From Stutzerimonas kunmingensis (GTDB lineage Bacteria > Pseudomonadota > Gammaproteobacteria > Pseudomonadales > Pseudomonadaceae): DNA of 64,000 nucleotides. This document shows positions 1,427 to 10,601 of this stretch, piece by piece. Each line of letters starts with the position of its first letter. The stretch's first letter is position 1. Location of the stretch: the NCBI RefSeq assembly GCF_002929225.1, contig NZ_PISM01000004.1, forward strand, positions 1 through 64,000, given 5' to 3'. The notes below the pieces were generated by a model that worked only from the letters and a program-made list of their open reading frames with translations, searched no databases and was not told the DNA's origin. A program made the position numbers and the translations under genes.

Positions 1427-2587
1427 TTATCTGCACCTAGCTCGCTCCGCTAGGAAGAATCTCTTGTAGCCTTCAAAGTCCAGCGAGAGAACCTCGCCTG
1501 TTGTCTCTATTAAGTGCTCTTCTTCAATCGGTGTGGCCAGCTCGCCGCCTAGGATGCGCAGATGGAGGCGCAATCTGCCAGGGGCTTGCGGGAGAATCGC
1601 AAGTAATTCCGATCTACCCTGCTCCCCTGGTAAGAGAGACCCAAGGCGAATGTGGCATACCGGGGTTGGGCCGCTTTCATCTACCTCCAGGCTGACATCT
1701 TTTTTGGCCAATACCTCCTGTACGGATGCGAGATTGGCTATGTTCCACGTAGGCTTTGGCTCGTCGGGTAAATCGCGTCCAGCGATCATGTGAACCGCTT
1801 GGGAGTCAAGAGCTTCTACGGTTACCTCAAGCTTGGAGTTGGACAGCTGTACGCTGGATCGATTGGTCAGCACGAGTCGCATTGCAATGCATGCTTCGTT
1901 CACGCGCGTGTACTCGCCGTGCTCCCGCCAGAAATCATTGTTGTCTCTATCAAGGCCTATAAACTCGGGCGGATCAAACGGGCCACGGGGCTTGCGTGGT
2001 TTCTCGAAGTCCGGAAATTTCTCGGTGAAATGCAAGTAGGTGTGAGCAAAGCTATTGGGGAGTTCTTCGTTCCCGGGAGTCAGTAGGGACAGCTCGATTC
2101 TCAGATCGCCACGACCGCTATCCTCATTTGCCATCGCGATGGTCTCGACCGGCTCTGCTTCGTCAGTGCTGCTACCTCGGCGGACATACACCACATTGCT
2201 TTTAAGCTTGCCGTAAGGGCTTGCGAGGTAAAATGGCCGCTTCTGCTTTGGGATGATGATGACGCCGATGGTCTTCTCCTCGTAAACGTGCTCCTCGTAG
2301 CGGAACGTCAGCTTCGGCTTCACCTTGCTGTTCACGAACTGCTGTATCCGAGAGTCGTCGATGCTGTCTTGGATGCCGACAACTTCAGCAGGGTGGGGGC
2401 GCTGATCCTTGAACCCTAAAAGGATGTAGCCAGTGCCTTCGCGCCAGGAGTTGGCGATTGCGAGAATGTCCTTGAGCAGCTCTGATTTATCGGCCTCAGT
2501 GCCGCTATTGAAACGGTACTGGGCAGATTTGAAGTCAATATCAGTGCTCTCGCTCTTGTAGCGCAGCATGTTTAGCAGATCAATCAT
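1427..2587 (-). CDS. AlbA_2 (Schlafen-type) domain protein
   Basis: A 386-residue protein. Residues about 12-155 match the AlbA_2 domain: ESTDIDFKSA at the start, the helix KDILAIANSW, the strand GYILLGFKD, and later VVYVRRGSST. AlbA_2 domains are found in Schlafen-like proteins and in many bacterial regulators and defence proteins, where they bind nucleic acid or act as nucleases. The remaining 230 residues are beta-rich with no motif I recognise and may form a sensor or partner-binding module. The ATG is preceded by GTGAGGG at good spacing. It lies 300 bases downstream of the PD-(D/E)XK gene on the same strand. Whether it acts with that gene is unknown. Confidence 0.75.
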   Translation of the reverse strand: MIDLLNMLRYKSESTDIDFKSAQYRFNSGTEADKSELLKDILAIANSWREGTGYILLGFKDQRPHPAEVVGIQDSIDDSRIQQFVNSKVKPKLTFRYEEHVYEEKTIGVIIIPKQKRPFYLASPYGKLKSNVVYVRRGSSTDEAEPVETIAMANEDSGRGDLRIELSLLTPGNEELPNSFAHTYLHFTEKFPDFEKPRKPRGPFDPPEFIGLDRDNNDFWREHGEYTRVNEACIAMRLVLTNRSSVQLSNSKLEVTVEALDSQAVHMIAGRDLPDEPKPTWNIANLASVQEVLAKKDVSLEVDESGPTPVCHIRLGSLLPGEQGRSELLAILPQAPGRLRLHLRILGGELATPIEEEHLIETTGEVLSLDFEGYKRFFLAERARCR

Positions 2588-2887
2588 CTACGCCCTCACG
2601 CCTTGATTTGGTGTGAGCCCGATTTGAGCATTATGATCACCTAAGCGGTAGGTGGAATGAGTAGAGCTATGAAGGAGAGCTTGGTCTTCGGTTAAGGGTG
2701 CCTATGGGCAGCTGCCGGCCAGATAGCGGACGGTCTCACAGGATCTGAGCAGACCATCCTTGAGGCTTGAAGACATCTATGAAACTAGGGGCGATTCATT
2801 CAGGCCCTTCAAACTTACGGCTCATACTTGAAATTACTCAAAAGAAGGTTTGCCCAGTAGCCGCAGCATTTCTTGAGACGGCCCCCG
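2588..2887. other. Intergenic gap between the AlbA_2 and nuclease genes
   Basis: 300 bases of AT-rich sequence. Short open frames exist on the plus strand (for example from 2767) but have no ribosome binding site and run antisense through the end of the nuclease gene, so I do not call them. I see no terminator with a T-tract and no convincing promoter, although the length would allow the AlbA_2 gene to have its own. Confidence 0.4.
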
Positions 2888-4270
2888 TCACTGCGGGACT
2901 TTTGCAGCTTTGTCTTGTGCCCAGTGAGTCGTGCCCTCCACGGCTTCTGCCGGGCCAGAGGCGAGCATCAAGGTCTGGAAAGGGAAGAGAACAGCCAAGT
3001 CAGGCACGCGGGCAAAATCTTGTACCGTTTCGGCCCACTCGTAGGTGTCCTCGAACGGGTAGTAATTGACGGCGTGCACGAAGACCCCAAGCACCGTTGT
3101 CTCAGAGGCGTCGTAGTTGGAGATGTTGTCGATGTTCTTGTCCCGGCGTAGCTCCTCGATTTCCACTCCATCTCGAGTCTCATACCAGACGTGCACAACA
3201 CCAGGGCGGTCTGGAGGAATCTGGGTCACGCCATCGTTGACTAGACCCTTGAAGTGCTTAGAGCGTAGAGAAAGCGACTTATCATGCTCACAGCACCATT
3301 GGGCGCCTACGCAGCAGCCAACGTCTTTGACGAACATATTGAGGAAGTCATTGTTGCTACCCGGACGAATGACCCGTGCACCGATGGTCGCGATGCTTCG
3401 CTTTTCATTGCTGTCCACATCGCCGAATACCAGCAGCTCGTGCTGAGGGCTATTGGGCCTGACGGAGAATTTTAAGTAGTGGCGCTTGAGGCTCTTCTTG
3501 TCGATAGCTCGTATTTGACCGCTGACTGACCCAGCCCTTACCTTTTCCCCTCTAGCTTTGATGGCTAGGTCCACCAATTTGATCACCTCGCCCGTTGACA
3601 CATCGGCGACCTGATCATGGAAAGTTAGGTCAACGGTGCACCAAGGCGCGGCCTTGAGCATGTGACGGCTCAACTGAGTCCATATGTTTGTCCAGGCTTC
3701 CTCTTCGGTCCGTGAGTACTTCGTTTGTTTATCCGCCCGTTTACATTCGACGTAGAGCTCTTCCTCGCCCATTTTGACGAGCAGGTCTGGCGATCTCTTT
3801 TTCCCATCAGGCCAAGTGATGCTGTTTTCGGGGATAAAAGAAACCTCATAGCCGTTCTTCAAGTAGAACGCGGCGGTCAGCAGCTCAAATAACTGCTTCT
3901 CTGGCTGATTGTTGTTCGCCAGCATCTTGTCTAGAACAGCTTCTACGTTGGGCACGACGCGAAGCAGATGAGCAACAGCTCCTATGGCCATGGCATAGGT
4001 GTAAACACGCCTGCTGCTGTAGGCGGAGTCGCTATAGGGGAAGTCATGGGCTAGGTATGACGCGAGGATGTACCAGTCGATGTCATCGTCTGCGGGTATG
4101 AAGAGCTGGGACTCTATCGGCAGCCTGATGTCGAAACTCGACTCCTTCTCTCGGATGCGCTTCACATAGTCGGCTTTGCGCTCGGCCCAGACATCTGGGC
4201 CAAGCCGATCCACAAGCAGCTTGTAAAACGCTTTGATTCTTGCGCGCTCAATCCGATCGACGACATCCAT
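2888..4270 (-). CDS. PD-(D/E)XK nuclease-like protein
   Basis: A 460-residue protein. The centre carries a nuclease-type signature: helix QLFELLTAAFYLKNGYEV, then RSPDLLVKMGEEELYVECKR, giving Glu (helix), Asp162, Glu175-Cys-Lys177 in the E-xPD-(D/E)xK order of restriction-endonuclease-fold enzymes. The N-terminal 125 residues are helical. The C-terminal half is alpha/beta and unassigned. I start it at the ATG at 4270 because GGAGAGA lies about 8 bases upstream; a GTG at 4351 would add 27 residues without a good binding site. It is divergent from the SMC-like ATPase across about 300 bases, and such nuclease plus ATPase pairs are common in phage defence. Function in this case is inferred from domain logic only. 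Confidence 0.65.
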   Translation of the reverse strand: MDVVDRIERARIKAFYKLLVDRLGPDVWAERKADYVKRIREKESSFDIRLPIESQLFIPADDDIDWYILASYLAHDFPYSDSAYSSRRVYTYAMAIGAVAHLLRVVPNVEAVLDKMLANNNQPEKQLFELLTAAFYLKNGYEVSFIPENSITWPDGKKRSPDLLVKMGEEELYVECKRADKQTKYSRTEEEAWTNIWTQLSRHMLKAAPWCTVDLTFHDQVADVSTGEVIKLVDLAIKARGEKVRAGSVSGQIRAIDKKSLKRHYLKFSVRPNSPQHELLVFGDVDSNEKRSIATIGARVIRPGSNNDFLNMFVKDVGCCVGAQWCCEHDKSLSLRSKHFKGLVNDGVTQIPPDRPGVVHVWYETRDGVEIEELRRDKNIDNISNYDASETTVLGVFVHAVNYYPFEDTYEWAETVQDFARVPDLAVLFPFQTLMLASGPAEAVEGTTHWAQDKAAKVPQ

Positions 4271-4571
4271 GCGGTCTCTCTCCAACTTGTGACCGATGAG
4301 ATTACCTCGGAGACATATCAACGTACCACCATCGCGGTTTATATCAGCCACTGGCTTGAATGCTTCCTTCTTAGCCTACTGAAGCCCGTTGTGACTGATG
4401 GCTACCGCCATTAGCGGCCTCTCCAAAGATTAGCTGCGGCATCCGTCGGCTTATCAGGTGTGGTACCAGGTTCAGATCGGCAGCGCTCCACATTAGCGAA
4501 GGTTGGCCTAGCTGTGATGGTTTTCTGATTTCAGTCCGGCTACGATCATGCGCTTCAGGGAGGAGGGCGCG
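4271..4571. promoter_or_regulatory. Divergent control region between nuclease and ATPase genes
   Basis: The two genes point away from each other, so both promoters should lie here. I see no textbook -35/-10 pair. Near 4396-4418 a short inverted sequence (GGCTACCGCC...GGCGGTAGCC-like halves are only partial) could be an operator, but it is weak. The region shows the same AT-richer composition as the flanking genes. The strong ribosome binding site AGGGAGGAGGG at 4557-4567 belongs to the ATPase gene. Confidence 0.4.
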
Positions 4572-7421
4572 ATGAGCCAGTACCTTTTGAGTTTTGCAAG
4601 GCAGCATCTTGAAGAGCGCACTGACGCATACCTCGTGCTGCTCTGGTGCATGTACCAGGCGAACCAAAGCAAGGGGCGCTATTCCGACCATATCAAAACG
4701 CACATCACCGCGGCAGCCGACCATCTGCTGGGGCGCAACTATCAGCGCATCGCCTCTCGCTTCAAAAAGGTGCTCGACAACAAGCCGGAACTGGATCGGA
4801 TACCGCCTTCCGGCCTTGGAGCTTTGGACTACCTTCGCGTGAAAAACTTCCGAGGCTTCGGAGAGTTTGGCCCTGACGACAACGGCTCTTTCATCCGCTT
4901 CAGCAAGTTGAAAAATGTCTTCTACGCGCCCAATGGCGGTGGTAAATCGTCCTTGTGCGAGGCGTTGGAGTTCGGCACCACAGGAGACATCAAGGAAGCG
5001 TCTAGGCGCAAGACCAAGCTTAGGCAGTACATCGCCCGGGGAGACATTCGGCACGAGCTCTTGCTGAAGGGAGCGGACAAGCTTCCGGTCAAACCAAGCA
5101 TAAGTTGGTCGAGTTGCTTCATAGACCGTAACCGCCTTCAGGAGTTTTCCCTGCTGGGTTCCAAGGACACCGGCAGTATCGAGAGTGATGTCCTGGCGAC
5201 CCTGTTTGGCTTGGAAGAACTCCAAGAGGTCATTGCACGGTTCGTCAGGCCTGAAAGCTTCTCGCTCAAGCCCCTCATGCGTGCCGACCAAGCCGAGGCT
5301 CTGAAAACTCTGGAGCACACTTGCAGCAGCCTGGGCCAGCAGAGGCGTAAGCATAGGGCAGACCTTTGGGTATCAATTTCCCAAATCTGCGAGCTGCTTG
5401 GGCTGCGGTCAGATCAAGACTTTGAGATTCGCCCCAAGGTATTGCGGCTTCGAAAAACAATAGAAATGCATATCCGTGGAGCTGAGCGCCTTCGAGCCGC
5501 CAAAGCTCCATTCGCTATCCCGCTGAAGCAGGTGAGGCGCGTCTGTACTATCGCTCAGCGCTTGCTCCACCGCAGAGCCGATATCGAGATGGTATTTCTG
5601 CAGAGGGCCAGCGAGGTCAATTATCGCGCCGTTTTCGAGGCCTTGGAAGCTGTCGAGCTGCAGTCGAGGGCAACTTGCCCTGCATGCCTGACGCCCCTCG
5701 ACAAGGTGACAGTGAACCCATTCGAGAGGGCGCGAGAGCAGATCAAGGCGTTGGGTGCACTGGAATCCCTGAAGCAATCCAGGCTGCGAAATGACGCGCG
5801 GATCGCGCTCTGGGCATCACGAGTTGCCACGGGAATCGGCGCTGTGAAGGGCAATGAGTACGCCGACGTACCCTGCCAGCTGAGGATGGACGAGTTAGAA
5901 GCGGTGCTTGCAGAATTTCATGCCGCTACCGATCGCTCGGAGGTGGCTCCGTCAGTTCTCGACTCATTCCTGAAACTCTGCGCCGAGCGTGCCGATCAGA
6001 TCGAGGCTTACCTGCGAAACTGTGAGCGCAAGTACCGGGAGGTTGGCCAGGCAGAAGCCCAGGCAGCCCGCCTTGAAGCACGGGTGGTGCAACTGAAAGC
6101 GATTGATGATTCATTGAAGCAACTGTTCGACCGTAAAACGCGTGCGGAGAGCGAGTTCAAAGCCTGCAACGGTCAGATGGCAGAATTGGTAAGGCAAAAA
6201 GCAGCCTTGCTCAACGACGCAGTCGATAACAGTCGCTTCAACCAGCTGCTCAAAGATCTCGAGGCTGAGTACCGAACGCTGTACCGCGATCTGCTGGATT
6301 ACAAGCTCGAGCTGGAGAAAGCGCGAATCACCGGGATCGAAGCCAAGGCAGCCGAGTACTACCGCGCTATCAACAATCACGACGATGACCATGAGCAGAT
6401 CGCGTCGTTGAGCTTCGACCGGCAGGCGGATAACTACCGGATCAAGATCACCAACGTGGATGGATCATTGCTCGATGCGTTTGCTGTGCTCAGCGAAGGG
6501 CATCTGCGAGCATTGGGCCTGTCAATCCTCCTGGCGATGGCTGAGAAAAACAACTTCCCGCTCATCGTCTTTGATGACGTCGTCAATGCGATCGACACCG
6601 ATCACCGATCGAACATTATCGACCTGTTCTTCAGCGACGCTTACCTGCGCCGGATCCAAATGGTCGTCACCACCCATGACCGCCTCTTCTGGGAACGATT
6701 CTGCATCATCGCCGACCGTCACCCTCAGTGCGATCAGCATACTAGCCACGTGCTCAGCTACACGAACAAGGGCATCGTGGTGATTGATCACGAGGGTGGT
6801 TTCCAGAAGAAAGTCTACGTGGCGCTGTCGGTCTTCGACGTCCGTCAGGCATTGCTTTATTGCCGTATTTGGTTCGAATCCATGGTGCTTGAGTTTTGCA
6901 TTGAAAACGGCGTCACAGTCACGGCCAACTTCAACAAGTGGCAGTTGAAGAAGAGCATGTATCTGCAGGTCAGCCTAGAGCACACCTTCTCGTTGGTGGA
7001 GACTTTCATCGACTACGACCTGTCGCACTTCAATCTCATCAAGAATGACTTGGTCAACTGGACTGGGCAGAACCAGGAGCATCACGCCTTCGACGAGGGC
7101 AGCCTGAACTTTGTGCACTCCAAGACCAGCAGTGAGGTATTGAGAATCTACGATGCCATCCGCTTCTTGGAGTGCCAGCTCTTCCCGGCGAGGAAAAAGG
7201 AGTCCGGGGAGAAGTACCTTGCCGAACTTAATGAGAAGATCGAGAGAAGCCAGAGGAAGTTAGCAGGGCTCGCTAAAGCACCAGTAGAGGTGCAGAAGGA
7301 GCATCAATCAGCTTTAAAAGCTTTGGAAAAGCGTGCCGGCGAGCTTGATCAGGAGCTTCAGTTCATCGAGCAGTGTCTCGCCAGCGTCGCTCAGCGCGAG
7401 CAAGCTAAAGAGCTGCCATGA
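4572..7421 (+). CDS. SMC/Rad50-like ABC ATPase with CxxC hook and extra C-terminal domain
   Basis: A 949-residue protein built like an SMC/RecN/Rad50 ATPase. Residues 1-85 form an extra helical N-terminal part. The head begins at [10 protein letters not shown], with Walker [11 protein letters not shown] (about 120-127). A long helical middle carries CPAC at 369-372, a possible zinc hook or zinc site. The head closes with the ABC signature [12 protein letters not shown] (about 640), Walker [14 protein letters not shown] (663-675) and the H-loop TTHDR (His702). About 245 residues follow, including the conserved-looking run [16 protein letters not shown] and a terminal coiled coil. Start chosen at 4572 for the strong AGGGAGGAGGG site; ATG 4548 is an alternative. 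It resembles ATPases of defence systems such as RloC, Lamassu or Septu in general plan, but I cannot assign it to one. Confidence 0.75.
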
Positions 7422-7883
7422 TCTCTACTCAGCTTGGCTCAGATCTGGCTACTTTGGGCTGAAATTCTGCGGGTTCTCAACAGCCGCTTCTGGCCGAAAG
7501 CTGCTAAATGATGTTCTGCCGTCCGACCTCACGTTTTCGCTCTGTTGTCTGAGGGATTCCCATTTTGAGGCATCCGGCGATCCGCCGTCGGGCTCGCGGG
7601 CTGCGCCCCTCGCCTCGTGCCGAGTCGCGGCCATCCGGCTTTGATCCCTGACGTCTCCGGCCCTTGAGGGCCTGCGCGCTCCGCTTGCCCCGATCCGTGG
7701 CATGGGTGGAGTGAGGGGGCGGTCTTGCTGTTCCCTTTACCGTATCACGGCGTTCTCGCCGTCAAGGGCGGCGCGTGCTTTGCACGCTGGCGTCCTGGCG
7801 GCCGTCAGTGACCCCTGACAGCTGCGCTGCGCCGTGCTGGCGCCGGTTCCGGGCAATTCCGCCCGAGCAACCGGAGCACGACC
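7422..7883. other. Hairpin-rich leader upstream of the ICE-type radC
   Basis: 462 bases without a gene. The second half (about 7620-7870) is GC-rich and full of short inverted repeats, such as GGCCCTTGAGGGCC, CGGCGTTCTCGCCG, GCGTGCTTTGCACGC and GTCAGTGACCCCTGAC. It looks like the conserved non-coding stretch found before radC-type genes in ICEclc/PAGI-2-like elements, a resemblance from memory and not from alignment. It abruptly replaces the AT-richer island sequence. Its role could be a structured 5' leader or a protein-binding array. The radC ribosome binding site GGAG is at 7873-7876. Confidence 0.45.
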
Positions 7884-10601
7884 ATGTCGCAACTTTCCTT
7901 TTCCTCGTTCGATGCCATGCTGCTGGTGCGTGATGCACAGGGGCGCTACCTGCCGGCATCTGTAGATCAGATCCTGAGCGTGGCGCGTCAGGCGATTGAT
8001 CAGAAGTACCAGCGCGGGGCGCTGTTTGACGCACCGGAAGTGGTCAAAGATTACCTGAGTACCAAGCTGGTCGGTTTCGAGCACGAGGTGTTCGCAGCGC
8101 TGTTCATGGACAGCAAACATCGGTTGCTTGAGTACGTTGAGTTGTTCCGCGGCACCATCGATCAGGCTTCGGTGTATCCGCTCTCCTATTCCGTTAAGCG
8201 AATGACCGATACGCTTGACCGTAACGTGATCGAGCACAGCCATTTCTTGATAGAGAAGGCGTTAAGTCACAGACAGGCCATGCTTCGGCAGGGAATGGCC
8301 GCATTCGTCACGCTCAATAACGCCTCAACCGATCCGCAATCGCGAGCTAAGATGGCGGCTCCAGACGTGCTTTTTTACAGCCTCGATTTCGATGCCCTTA
8401 TGGTGTTTGGCTCCGGCGTCGAAAAAACTCAGGCGCTCACTTCCGAGGCAGTGCGGGACAGCGATCTGCTTCAGCGGCTCGGCGTTGGGTTGGATGGGCT
8501 GTTAGAGCAAGCCCGGCGGGGTGGCCCCGATGCGTTGACAGGTGGAATTCTGCGGCTCGATGACACGTTGGTGCTCGCTGCTGCGGCAAATGCTTTGCCT
8601 GAGGATCAGGTCGCCCTGAGACGGGCTTCCGGCACCACCTTGGTTCTGATTGATTTGCTGGATCCGGACGAACTGCTGCGGCTCGGCTTCCAATACGGAC
8701 TGATCGATTTACATTTAATTGGCCAAGGTGAGGGTGGTGCGATATCAGAAGATGGCAGCCTAGCGCTCACCGACCTGGCGGGCGCCTCGGTAATCTTCGG
8801 CTGGTCGGCTCCTGAGTTCGGTCATGAGATGCTTGAAGGGCTGCTACCGATAGTCGGCTCCTCTGCGGTATTAATGCTTCTTCTAATAGGGTTGATCGCC
8901 CTTGATGCGGTGAGGGCATCGCGACGCCTTGAAGATAGTCACTCGGCGCTTACGGTCAGCCAGGCAAGCCTTGCTAGTAGTGAGAAGCGCTTTCGTGATA
9001 TCGCCGAGGCTGCATCGGACTGGTTGTGGGAAACCGATGAGCGCTTGAGGTTGATATACCTCTCCGAACGGTTTGAACGCGTCACCGAATTCAAAGCCAG
9101 CCAATGGCTGGGACGCCCGCTAGATGAGCTGCTTCAGGCTGATACGCAGGGTATCGCGCTGTGGTTACAGACACAGAGCAGAAAACCCTTGCGTTGCAAG
9201 TATTCGGACCGTAACGGTGACGTTCGGATCTGTCGCCTGGCGTCGCGGCCGATCATGGCGGACGGGAAATGTGCCGGTTACAGAGGTACCGCCAGCGACA
9301 TCACCGAGGAGGTAAAAGCGCAGACGCAGGTAGAGCATCTATCCATGCACGACGCTCTGACTGGCCTGCCCAATCGTAACAACTTGCACAGTTTTCTGGC
9401 CGGCAAGCTGGGAGCCAATAGGCCGTTGGCAATGATCAGTCTGGACCTGGATCGATTTAAGCCAGTAAATGACACCCTTGGGCACGCTGCAGGCGATCTG
9501 GTGCTCCAGGAAATGTCGCTCCGTTTGCTTAACTGTACGCGCAACGAAGACCTCGTCGCTCGGCTTGGCGGCGACGAATTCATCATGGTACTTGATGGCA
9601 TAAGCTCCCAGGAAAGCATTGAGGCGCTTTGTGTACGCCTTATCGATCAGATCAAACAACCGATCGTATACGAAGGCCAGAACATCTTCGTCGGCGGAAG
9701 CATCGGTATTGCGCTTGCGCCGCAGGACGCGACCGAGGCGAACGAGCTGTTGCGCTGTGCGGACATTGCGCTCTATCAGGCCAAGGAAGATGGACGTGCC
9801 ACGTGGCGGTTCTACGCCAGCGAAATGAACCAGCGGTTATTACAAAGACGACAGCTTGAGATGGACCTGCGGCAAGCCATGGCTATGGGGGAAATGGCGC
9901 TTCAGTATCAGCCGCGCTATCGAACAAATGGTATGCACATCATCGGAGCTGAAGCACTGGTGCGCTGGCAGCACCCACTGAAGGGGTTGCTCGGCCCGGC
10001 GCACTTCATTGACCTAGCGGAGGAAACCGGGCTCATCGTTCCGCTCGGACGATGGGTGTTAAATGAGGCCTGCAACGAAGCAGCACGCTGGCCCGAGCAT
10101 ATCTGCGTGTCAGTCAACCTGTCCGTTGTCCAGTTCCGTCAGAGCGACCTCCGACTGGATGTTCAGCGGGCACTGACGGAAGCCGGTCTGGCTGCCTCGC
10201 GGCTTGAGCTGGAGGTTGCCGAGAGCATTTTGCTGGATGAGTCCGCAGGTGCGTTAGCAACCCTCAATGCGCTCAAGGAATTAGGCGTACGCCTGACCAT
10301 GGACCACTTCGGTACGGGCTATTCTTCGCTCAATTACCTACGAAGTTATCCGTTCGACGGGTTGAAGATAGATCGCAGCTTCATTGGCAACGCGCTAAGT
10401 TCTGCTAATGACCGTTTGATCATCAAGGCAATCGTTGGGCTCGCGGAGGCCTTGGAGCTCACGGTTACCGCCGAGGGCGTTGAGACTGGTGAGCAGCTTG
10501 AATGGTTGGAAGAAGCAGACTGCGCAGTGGTGCAGGGTTTTCACATATGCCAGCCTCAATTCGCTCAAGAAATGGAGCGACTGGTTCAGGAGATGGGATG
10601 A
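7884..10601 (+). CDS. Chimera: truncated RadC fused to CHASE4-PAS-GGDEF-EAL protein
   Basis: A 905-residue product with two origins. Residues 1-99 are the N-terminus of an ICE-type RadC/JAB protein (MSQLSFSSFD to GTIDQASVYP); the JAB metal site that should follow is absent. From about residue 100 it is a c-di-GMP protein: CHASE4-like sensor (110-315), one membrane helix (about 322-343), PAS (367-478), GGDEF (GGDEF at 562-566, I-site RNED at 553-556) and EAL (EALVRW from 690, Asn745, Glu780, Lys828, Glu865). The family normally has a first membrane helix before the sensor; here it is replaced, so export of the sensor is doubtful. The EAL loop DDFGTG reads DHFGTG (His808). The ATG has GGAG 7 bases upstream. 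The cyclase half looks intact; the phosphodiesterase may be impaired. Confidence 0.8.
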   Translation: MSQLSFSSFDAMLLVRDAQGRYLPASVDQILSVARQAIDQKYQRGALFDAPEVVKDYLSTKLVGFEHEVFAALFMDSKHRLLEYVELFRGTIDQASVYPLSYSVKRMTDTLDRNVIEHSHFLIEKALSHRQAMLRQGMAAFVTLNNASTDPQSRAKMAAPDVLFYSLDFDALMVFGSGVEKTQALTSEAVRDSDLLQRLGVGLDGLLEQARRGGPDALTGGILRLDDTLVLAAAANALPEDQVALRRASGTTLVLIDLLDPDELLRLGFQYGLIDLHLIGQGEGGAISEDGSLALTDLAGASVIFGWSAPEFGHEMLEGLLPIVGSSAVLMLLLIGLIALDAVRASRRLEDSHSALTVSQASLASSEKRFRDIAEAASDWLWETDERLRLIYLSERFERVTEFKASQWLGRPLDELLQADTQGIALWLQTQSRKPLRCKYSDRNGDVRICRLASRPIMADGKCAGYRGTASDITEEVKAQTQVEHLSMHDALTGLPNRNNLHSFLAGKLGANRPLAMISLDLDRFKPVNDTLGHAAGDLVLQEMSLRLLNCTRNEDLVARLGGDEFIMVLDGISSQESIEALCVRLIDQIKQPIVYEGQNIFVGGSIGIALAPQDATEANELLRCADIALYQAKEDGRATWRFYASEMNQRLLQRRQLEMDLRQAMAMGEMALQYQPRYRTNGMHIIGAEALVRWQHPLKGLLGPAHFIDLAEETGLIVPLGRWVLNEACNEAARWPEHICVSVNLSVVQFRQSDLRLDVQRALTEAGLAASRLELEVAESILLDESAGALATLNALKELGVRLTMDHFGTGYSSLNYLRSYPFDGLKIDRSFIGNALSSANDRLIIKAIVGLAEALELTVTAEGVETGEQLEWLEEADCAVVQGFHICQPQFAQEMERLVQEMG

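Follow-up and report, generated by a model that had tools for sequence, protein, structure and literature searches.

The window studied here, a stretch of 64,000 nucleotides from Stutzerimonas kunmingensis (contig NZ_PISM01000004.1, positions 1 to 64,000), carries between positions 1427 and 7421 three accessory genes, and our analysis concerns above all the last of them, which encodes an SMC/Rad50-like ATPase. An earlier note on this DNA had placed three accessory open reading frames there, which we confirmed, and had proposed that they form one defence module whose products act together. The first gene, on the minus strand (1427..2587), encodes a SLFN_AlbA_2 protein of 386 amino acids, and the assignment made in the earlier note holds at a comfortable score (Pfam PF04326, E=1.2e-17, 64.9 bits against a cutoff of 25.3). 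The second gene, also on the minus strand (2888..4270), encodes a predicted stand-alone PD-(D/E)XK nuclease of 460 amino acids from its probable start; its reading frame is open from 4351, and as listed (487 amino acids, 2888-4351) it probably begins too early, Met28 (4270) being the start in most homologues. The ATPase gene lies on the plus strand (4572..7421) and encodes 949 amino acids if it begins, as is probable, at Met9 of the reading frame 4548-7421, where the homologues begin. The nuclease and ATPase genes are divergent, and about 300 bases separate their probable starts.

The surroundings of homologues speak against joint membership of these three genes in one module. Wide neighbourhoods of homologues were fetched (spans of 8.7-25.4 kb, some reaching contig ends) and each was searched with all three proteins. 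The nuclease stood without this ATPase in 17 of 18 loci, and members of the ATPase family stood without the nuclease in 37 of 38; these counts exclude duplicates (L016, L069), very distant nuclease relatives (L051, L052, L086), a remnant (L068) and the short L112 and L113, and the loci are not all independent (L010, L097 and L099 are alike). The separation holds at high identity, as an ATPase at 98% occurs without the nuclease in L053 and a nuclease at 89% without the ATPase in L015. In L049, one of these 17 nuclease loci, 86 residues match a different SMC-like ATPase, which belongs to PDC-S06. The eight close ATPase loci have no common neighbour, and 11 further orphan relatives of the ATPase were found in annotated plasmids and E. 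coli. The AlbA_2 gene is present in none of the 18 nuclease loci or 38 ATPase loci, neither of the other two genes adjoins it in the loci of three of its relatives, and no relatives of its product were confirmed in viral contigs; it is an independent third neighbour. On this survey we reject a three-gene module; the locus is better explained as a group of genes that move independently. The earlier note had itself named independent occurrence of nuclease and ATPase homologues as grounds for giving up joint action. Because the homologues occur in this way, and because an effector domain is probably part of the ATPase itself, a module of all three genes or of two is not supported.

The sole exception is Pseudomonas sp. 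ZH-FAD (L014), the only other genome in which we saw the nuclease and the ATPase side by side in divergent orientation. Positions 2615..7504 of the window recur there at 99.88% identity, as a block of 4.9 kb with different flanks on both sides, which contains these two genes only, both whole, and begins outside the AlbA_2 gene. Judged from the sequence comparison, this block is one recent transfer event, and it is the only evidence for the pair. The ATPase also travels alone, since its homology to L053 and L054 starts at 4449 and 4407, respectively, short of the nuclease. On the other side, this homology ends exactly at 7504, as it does in ZH-FAD, with a shared right end at 7478..7504 (plus strand). 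The same last base is thus found in three unrelated contexts (it is 7496 in a fourth, L047); when the right-hand boundary motif was considered as a genome-wide repeat, it gave 1 match in its own genome and 1 in 18 other genomes searched, and this idea was rejected.

Within the family Pseudomonadaceae, the nuclease was matched in 6 of 298 genomes, four of them (own included) at an identity of at least 74%. The ATPase was matched in 31 of 296 genomes, most of them weakly: seven matches span the whole protein at no less than 57% (own included), a fragment matches at 67%, eight reach 27-31% over the head and hinge, and the remaining ones are a remnant with stop codons and short matches to generic ATPases. 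The remnant (G072:C12:576711-576954), a piece of the C-terminus at 85% identity, indicates that the ATPase gene also gets lost. The genome under study is alone in belonging to both high-identity groups. An even sample of the class gave a strong ATPase match in 3 of 369 genomes, own included, and the nuclease in its own genome only. Among 5,426 E. coli genomes, 46 have the nuclease and 20 a member of the ATPase family (one distant query). On plasmids, the nuclease appears in 62 of 72,556 records, 29 of which have most of the protein, and the ATPase in 31 records from Pseudomonas, Vibrio, Polaromonas, Cupriavidus, Pantoea, Rhizobium and others, none of which covers 80% of the window protein. Phage records searched with the ATPase gave no matches.

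The nuclease motif proposed by the earlier note is exact when numbered from Met28: Asp162, Glu175 and Lys177 (3787-3785, 3748-3746 and 3742-3740, minus strand) do not vary among 10 aligned sequences, the most distant of which has 23% identity. Pfam returned only sub-cutoff matches of PD-(D/E)XK type (AHJR-like 0.0039, Mrr_cat 0.086), and the protein matches PHROG 37220, a family that carries no assigned function, over its full length (8e-241). The structure model is modest (mean predicted local distance difference test score, pLDDT, of 59). With it, Foldseek found nothing at E<=0.001, and VIA-align gave 1y88 as best match (Z 8.3, root-mean-square deviation 3.7, 103 residues), followed by a list abundant in Hjc, McrC, FokI and other PD-(D/E)XK enzymes at Z 4-7. 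The protein has the D...E-x-K core, and the modelled fold supports its assignment to the PD-(D/E)XK enzymes. A literature search by the accessions of five nuclease proteins found no paper.

The ATPase is Rad50-like in its Pfam matches (SMC_N 1.8e-12, AAA_23 4.4e-10), and residues 82-742 of its model fit Rad50 with a VIA-align Z of 20. We aligned it with 39 homologues, a first set of 26 and then 13 more, which come from plasmids, from E. coli and from two further genomes; these 13 are not independent of the first set, as several of the rows from E. coli and plasmids are similar to L074. The complete head that the earlier note had read in this protein is conserved: the Walker A lysine, the SEG signature, Walker B (which reads FDD in place of the usual DE) and the H-loop histidine are kept in the homologues, one truncated row lacking Walker A. 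The analysis added three features to that description. The coiled-coil insert carries a zinc hook motif, CPAC (C369-C372, 5676..5687, plus strand), both cysteines of which are kept in 39 of 39 homologues, and an N-terminal extension of about 81 residues and a C-terminal domain lie outside the Rad50-like part. This C-terminal domain, a putative RNase (residues 712-949, 6705..7418, plus strand), has exactly five invariant residues among its 238, in 26 of 26 and then in 39 of 39 sequences. They are R765 and E769, in the step R765-x3-E769 (6864..6878), and W830, N834 and H838, in W830-x3-N834-x3-H838 (7059..7085), all on the plus strand.

This arrangement recalls RloC. RloC is defined in the literature by a Rad50-like zinc-hook ATPase joined to a C-terminal R-x3-E-x36-52-H triad, whose residues Arg692, Glu696 and His737 are each required, mutation abolishing activity (PMC2610378); its RNase domain is classed as HEPN (PMC3710099). 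In all 39 homologues of the window ATPase, R-x3-E is followed by a later invariant histidine, in the order of the RloC/PrrC anticodon nucleases, and N-x3-H is also present in 8 of 10 RloC-type (PF13166) proteins from related genomes. Of 16 members of the ATPase family, 12 match PF13166 at E<=0.1 (best 4.3e-7).

What stands of the proposed defence role is the surroundings, which in some genomes are of defence type for each of the nuclease and the ATPase on its own. Of 17 distinct neighbour proteins chosen for a scan against PADLOC, 10 gave a match and 7 gave none. Near the ATPase are a HamB-type helicase (L055, where the adjacent small protein matched nothing), the BREX genes PglZ and BrxL (L056) and a partial match to PDC-M54A (L058). 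Near the nuclease are GajA and GajB of Gabija (L011) and PDC-M68A and M68B of an ABC-3C system (L015); PDC-M68B lies about 9 kb from it, across insertion sequences, in L098, and the PDC-S06 ATPase about 5.5 kb from it in L049. The three E. coli contexts of the nuclease that we viewed are two P2-like prophages and one island. In the prophage slot the nuclease lies between tail fibre assembly and tail sheath, as in phage 899, a position which we take to be that of the fun gene. A DUF3800 gene follows the nuclease in this slot in L010, L097 and L099, and similar reading frames precede distant ATPase relatives in L073 and L075. Some distant ATPase relatives have SOS or translesion genes nearby (SRAP peptidase, DinI, UmuC-type polymerase), according to annotation in L108, L119 and L120 and as read from the starts of open reading frames in L059 and L079. 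A functional screen reported that P2 has a second site rich in defence genes, to which the fun gene belongs (PMC9519451).

Based on these results, we lean slightly towards an explanation in which the genes are separately mobile, the ATPase is a self-contained, DNA-triggered RNase that stops translation in the manner of RloC, and the nuclease and the AlbA_2 gene are independent of it. The Rad50-like head with its zinc-hook coiled coil would sense aberrant DNA, such as ends or structures arising from phage infection or DNA damage, and an ATP-dependent rearrangement would release the C-terminal, metal-independent RNase. The active site of this RNase would consist of R765, E769 and H838, helped by N834 and W830; it may cut tRNA or another RNA, so that translation stops and infection is aborted, as with RloC, which cleaves the tRNA anticodon and takes out its wobble nucleotide. 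The ATPase seems to need no partner. The nuclease would be another cargo of a single gene, unrelated to the first, with a DNase core of PD-(D/E)XK type. Of this scheme, our data show that the genes are independent, that the head is of Rad50 type, and that the zinc hook and five C-terminal residues are kept; the DNA trigger, the RNase chemistry, tRNA as the target and the role in defence are inferred.

Several of our observations weigh against this explanation. The spacing from E to H is 68 residues in 8 close sequences and 71-92 in the 31 others, as compared with 36-52 given for RloC (PMC2610378), and the window ATPase scores only 16.3 bits against AAA_13 (PF13166), whose cutoff is 36. When the C-terminal domains were compared with RloC by hhalign, the probabilities were 0.03%, then 0.3, 8.0 and 0.5%, and 2.2% after trimming; the first four comparisons failed or misaligned the motifs, and the trimmed one paired N-x3-H, not R-x3-E. 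The trimmed comparison, the only one for which shuffles were run, scored 19.8 against a shuffled maximum of 18.7 (0 of 100 column shuffles reached it) and 13.0 when reversed; its input omitted, on one side, the close subfamily and a truncated row and, on the RloC side, L091 (truncated) and L096 (in which the triad differs). The model of the C-terminal domain is too poor (low pLDDT) to show a HEPN fold. The neighbour scan covered chosen proteins without a background control, so no background rate stands beside 10 of 17. Finally, on one occasion the nuclease and the ATPase did move together, within a block that stayed whole, and in the two strains concerned they may co-operate.

This last point is the starting point of a rival explanation, a divergent two-gene system akin to Lamassu or SbcCD in which the ATPase senses DNA and the PD-(D/E)XK enzyme cuts it. 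Besides the divergent layout and the 99.9%-identical block moved into or from ZH-FAD, it can draw on LmuB as the best PADLOC match of the ATPase (5e-20) and on the PD-(D/E)XK domains listed among Lamassu effectors (PMC10586767). We nevertheless judge it improbable, as each gene mostly occurs without the other (in 17 of 18 nuclease loci and 37 of 38 ATPase loci), L053 and L015 with their close homologues included. LmuB is also described as a protein of about 650 residues (PMC10586767), and it leaves the extra C-terminal domain unexplained because the LmuB match ends at the head.

The ATPase could also be a stand-alone defence or DNA-repair protein whose C-terminal domain is no RNase and serves instead in binding, dimerisation or another catalytic activity, which would agree with the lack of a profile or fold match for this domain and with the SOS or translesion genes that adjoin some distant relatives. 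The domain does look catalytic, however, because its sole invariant residues are R, E, W, N and H, in RloC order and with the R-x3-E step, and we consider this alternative unlikely, although worth keeping in mind. We give little credence to the view that the genes are ordinary passengers of mobile elements with no defence role: their distribution is sporadic and no phage test of them was found in the literature searched, but the catalytic residues are kept over wide divergence, and defence neighbours and a prophage cargo slot recur.

Two further open reading frames flank the genes discussed here. A frame of 207 amino acids (692-1312) adjoins the AlbA_2 gene and has only a weak match to DUF2026 (E 0.11). 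Downstream of the ATPase, a frame of 905 amino acids (7884-10601) begins with 99 residues that match RadC (PF04002, 1e-8; 91% to RadC in L060) and goes on as a signalling protein of PAS-GGDEF-EAL type, which gives it the look of an in-frame chimera at the edge of the island.

More broadly, it is possible, although we would sooner doubt than assert it as one joint claim, that the ATPase represents an unnamed, widespread family of immune machines, each a single protein whose zinc-hooked DNA sensor of Rad50 type directly drives an RNase of its own (R-x3-E...W-x3-N-x3-H). Such a family would have reached the RloC design a second time, with an independent spacing, and would occur in relatives of Pseudomonas, in Vibrio, in enterobacteria (E. 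coli among them) and in alpha- and betaproteobacteria, where chromosomes, prophages and conjugative plasmids carry it. If so, Rad50-like DNA sensors would be coupled to RNases more commonly than the RloC and PrrC families suggest, and the members of the family, for which the plasmid and E. coli records that we viewed give no more than "AAA family ATPase", could be tested by mutation of the five residues. The orphan nuclease family PHROG 37220 gains a defence-type context, and the locus illustrates that a pair co-transferred in one or two genomes can mimic a defence module with which a wider survey disagrees.

The earlier note's statement that no named system is clearly matched agrees with our profile searches, including PADLOC. 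PtuA models match at 7e-5 or worse, in the Walker A region, and GajA and GajB are absent from the PADLOC matches of the three proteins, which sets the locus apart from the Septu and Gabija pairs. Like LmuB of Lamassu, the ATPase is Rad50/SMC-like, and LmuB structures are among its top Foldseek matches; LmuB models cover mainly the head, and the ATPase differs in having extra N- and C-terminal domains and neither an LmuA/LmuC operon nor a conserved neighbour; in Lamassu, LmuB accompanies an LmuA effector and often LmuC as well. It stands alone as does the single-gene SMC-like ATPase PDC-S06, which it matches at 1.4e-6, as compared with 2e-151 for the ATPase of L049. The nuclease resembles PHROG 37220, Hjc and AF1548 (1y88) in its catalytic core, D-x12-E-x-K, and in its predicted fold. 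A prophage ABC-HEPN protein of E. coli APEC O1 shares with our ATPase family a prophage-borne ABC ATPase, a zinc hook and a C-terminal triad (PMC3710099). The APEC O1 prophage ATPase in our data is probably the APECO1_4465 described there; by BLAST it groups with the RloC set (34% to L092), and it gave nothing at E<=1e-3 against the 39 sequences of the ATPase family. In the literature searched, mostly without subscription papers, we found no description of this family. The closest parallel is RloC itself (PF13166), with which the ATPase shares an ABC head of Rad50 type, interrupted by a coiled coil that bears a CxxC zinc hook, the C-terminal R-x3-E...H, N-x3-H around the histidine, and a gene that is mostly an orphan. 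It differs by its E-to-H spacing (68-92 versus 36-52), by the N-terminal extension and by having no accepted C-terminal profile match. Because it falls outside RloC in both triad spacing and Pfam cutoff, we do not file it as a member; in our reading, the ATPase would work like RloC yet belong to a different family.

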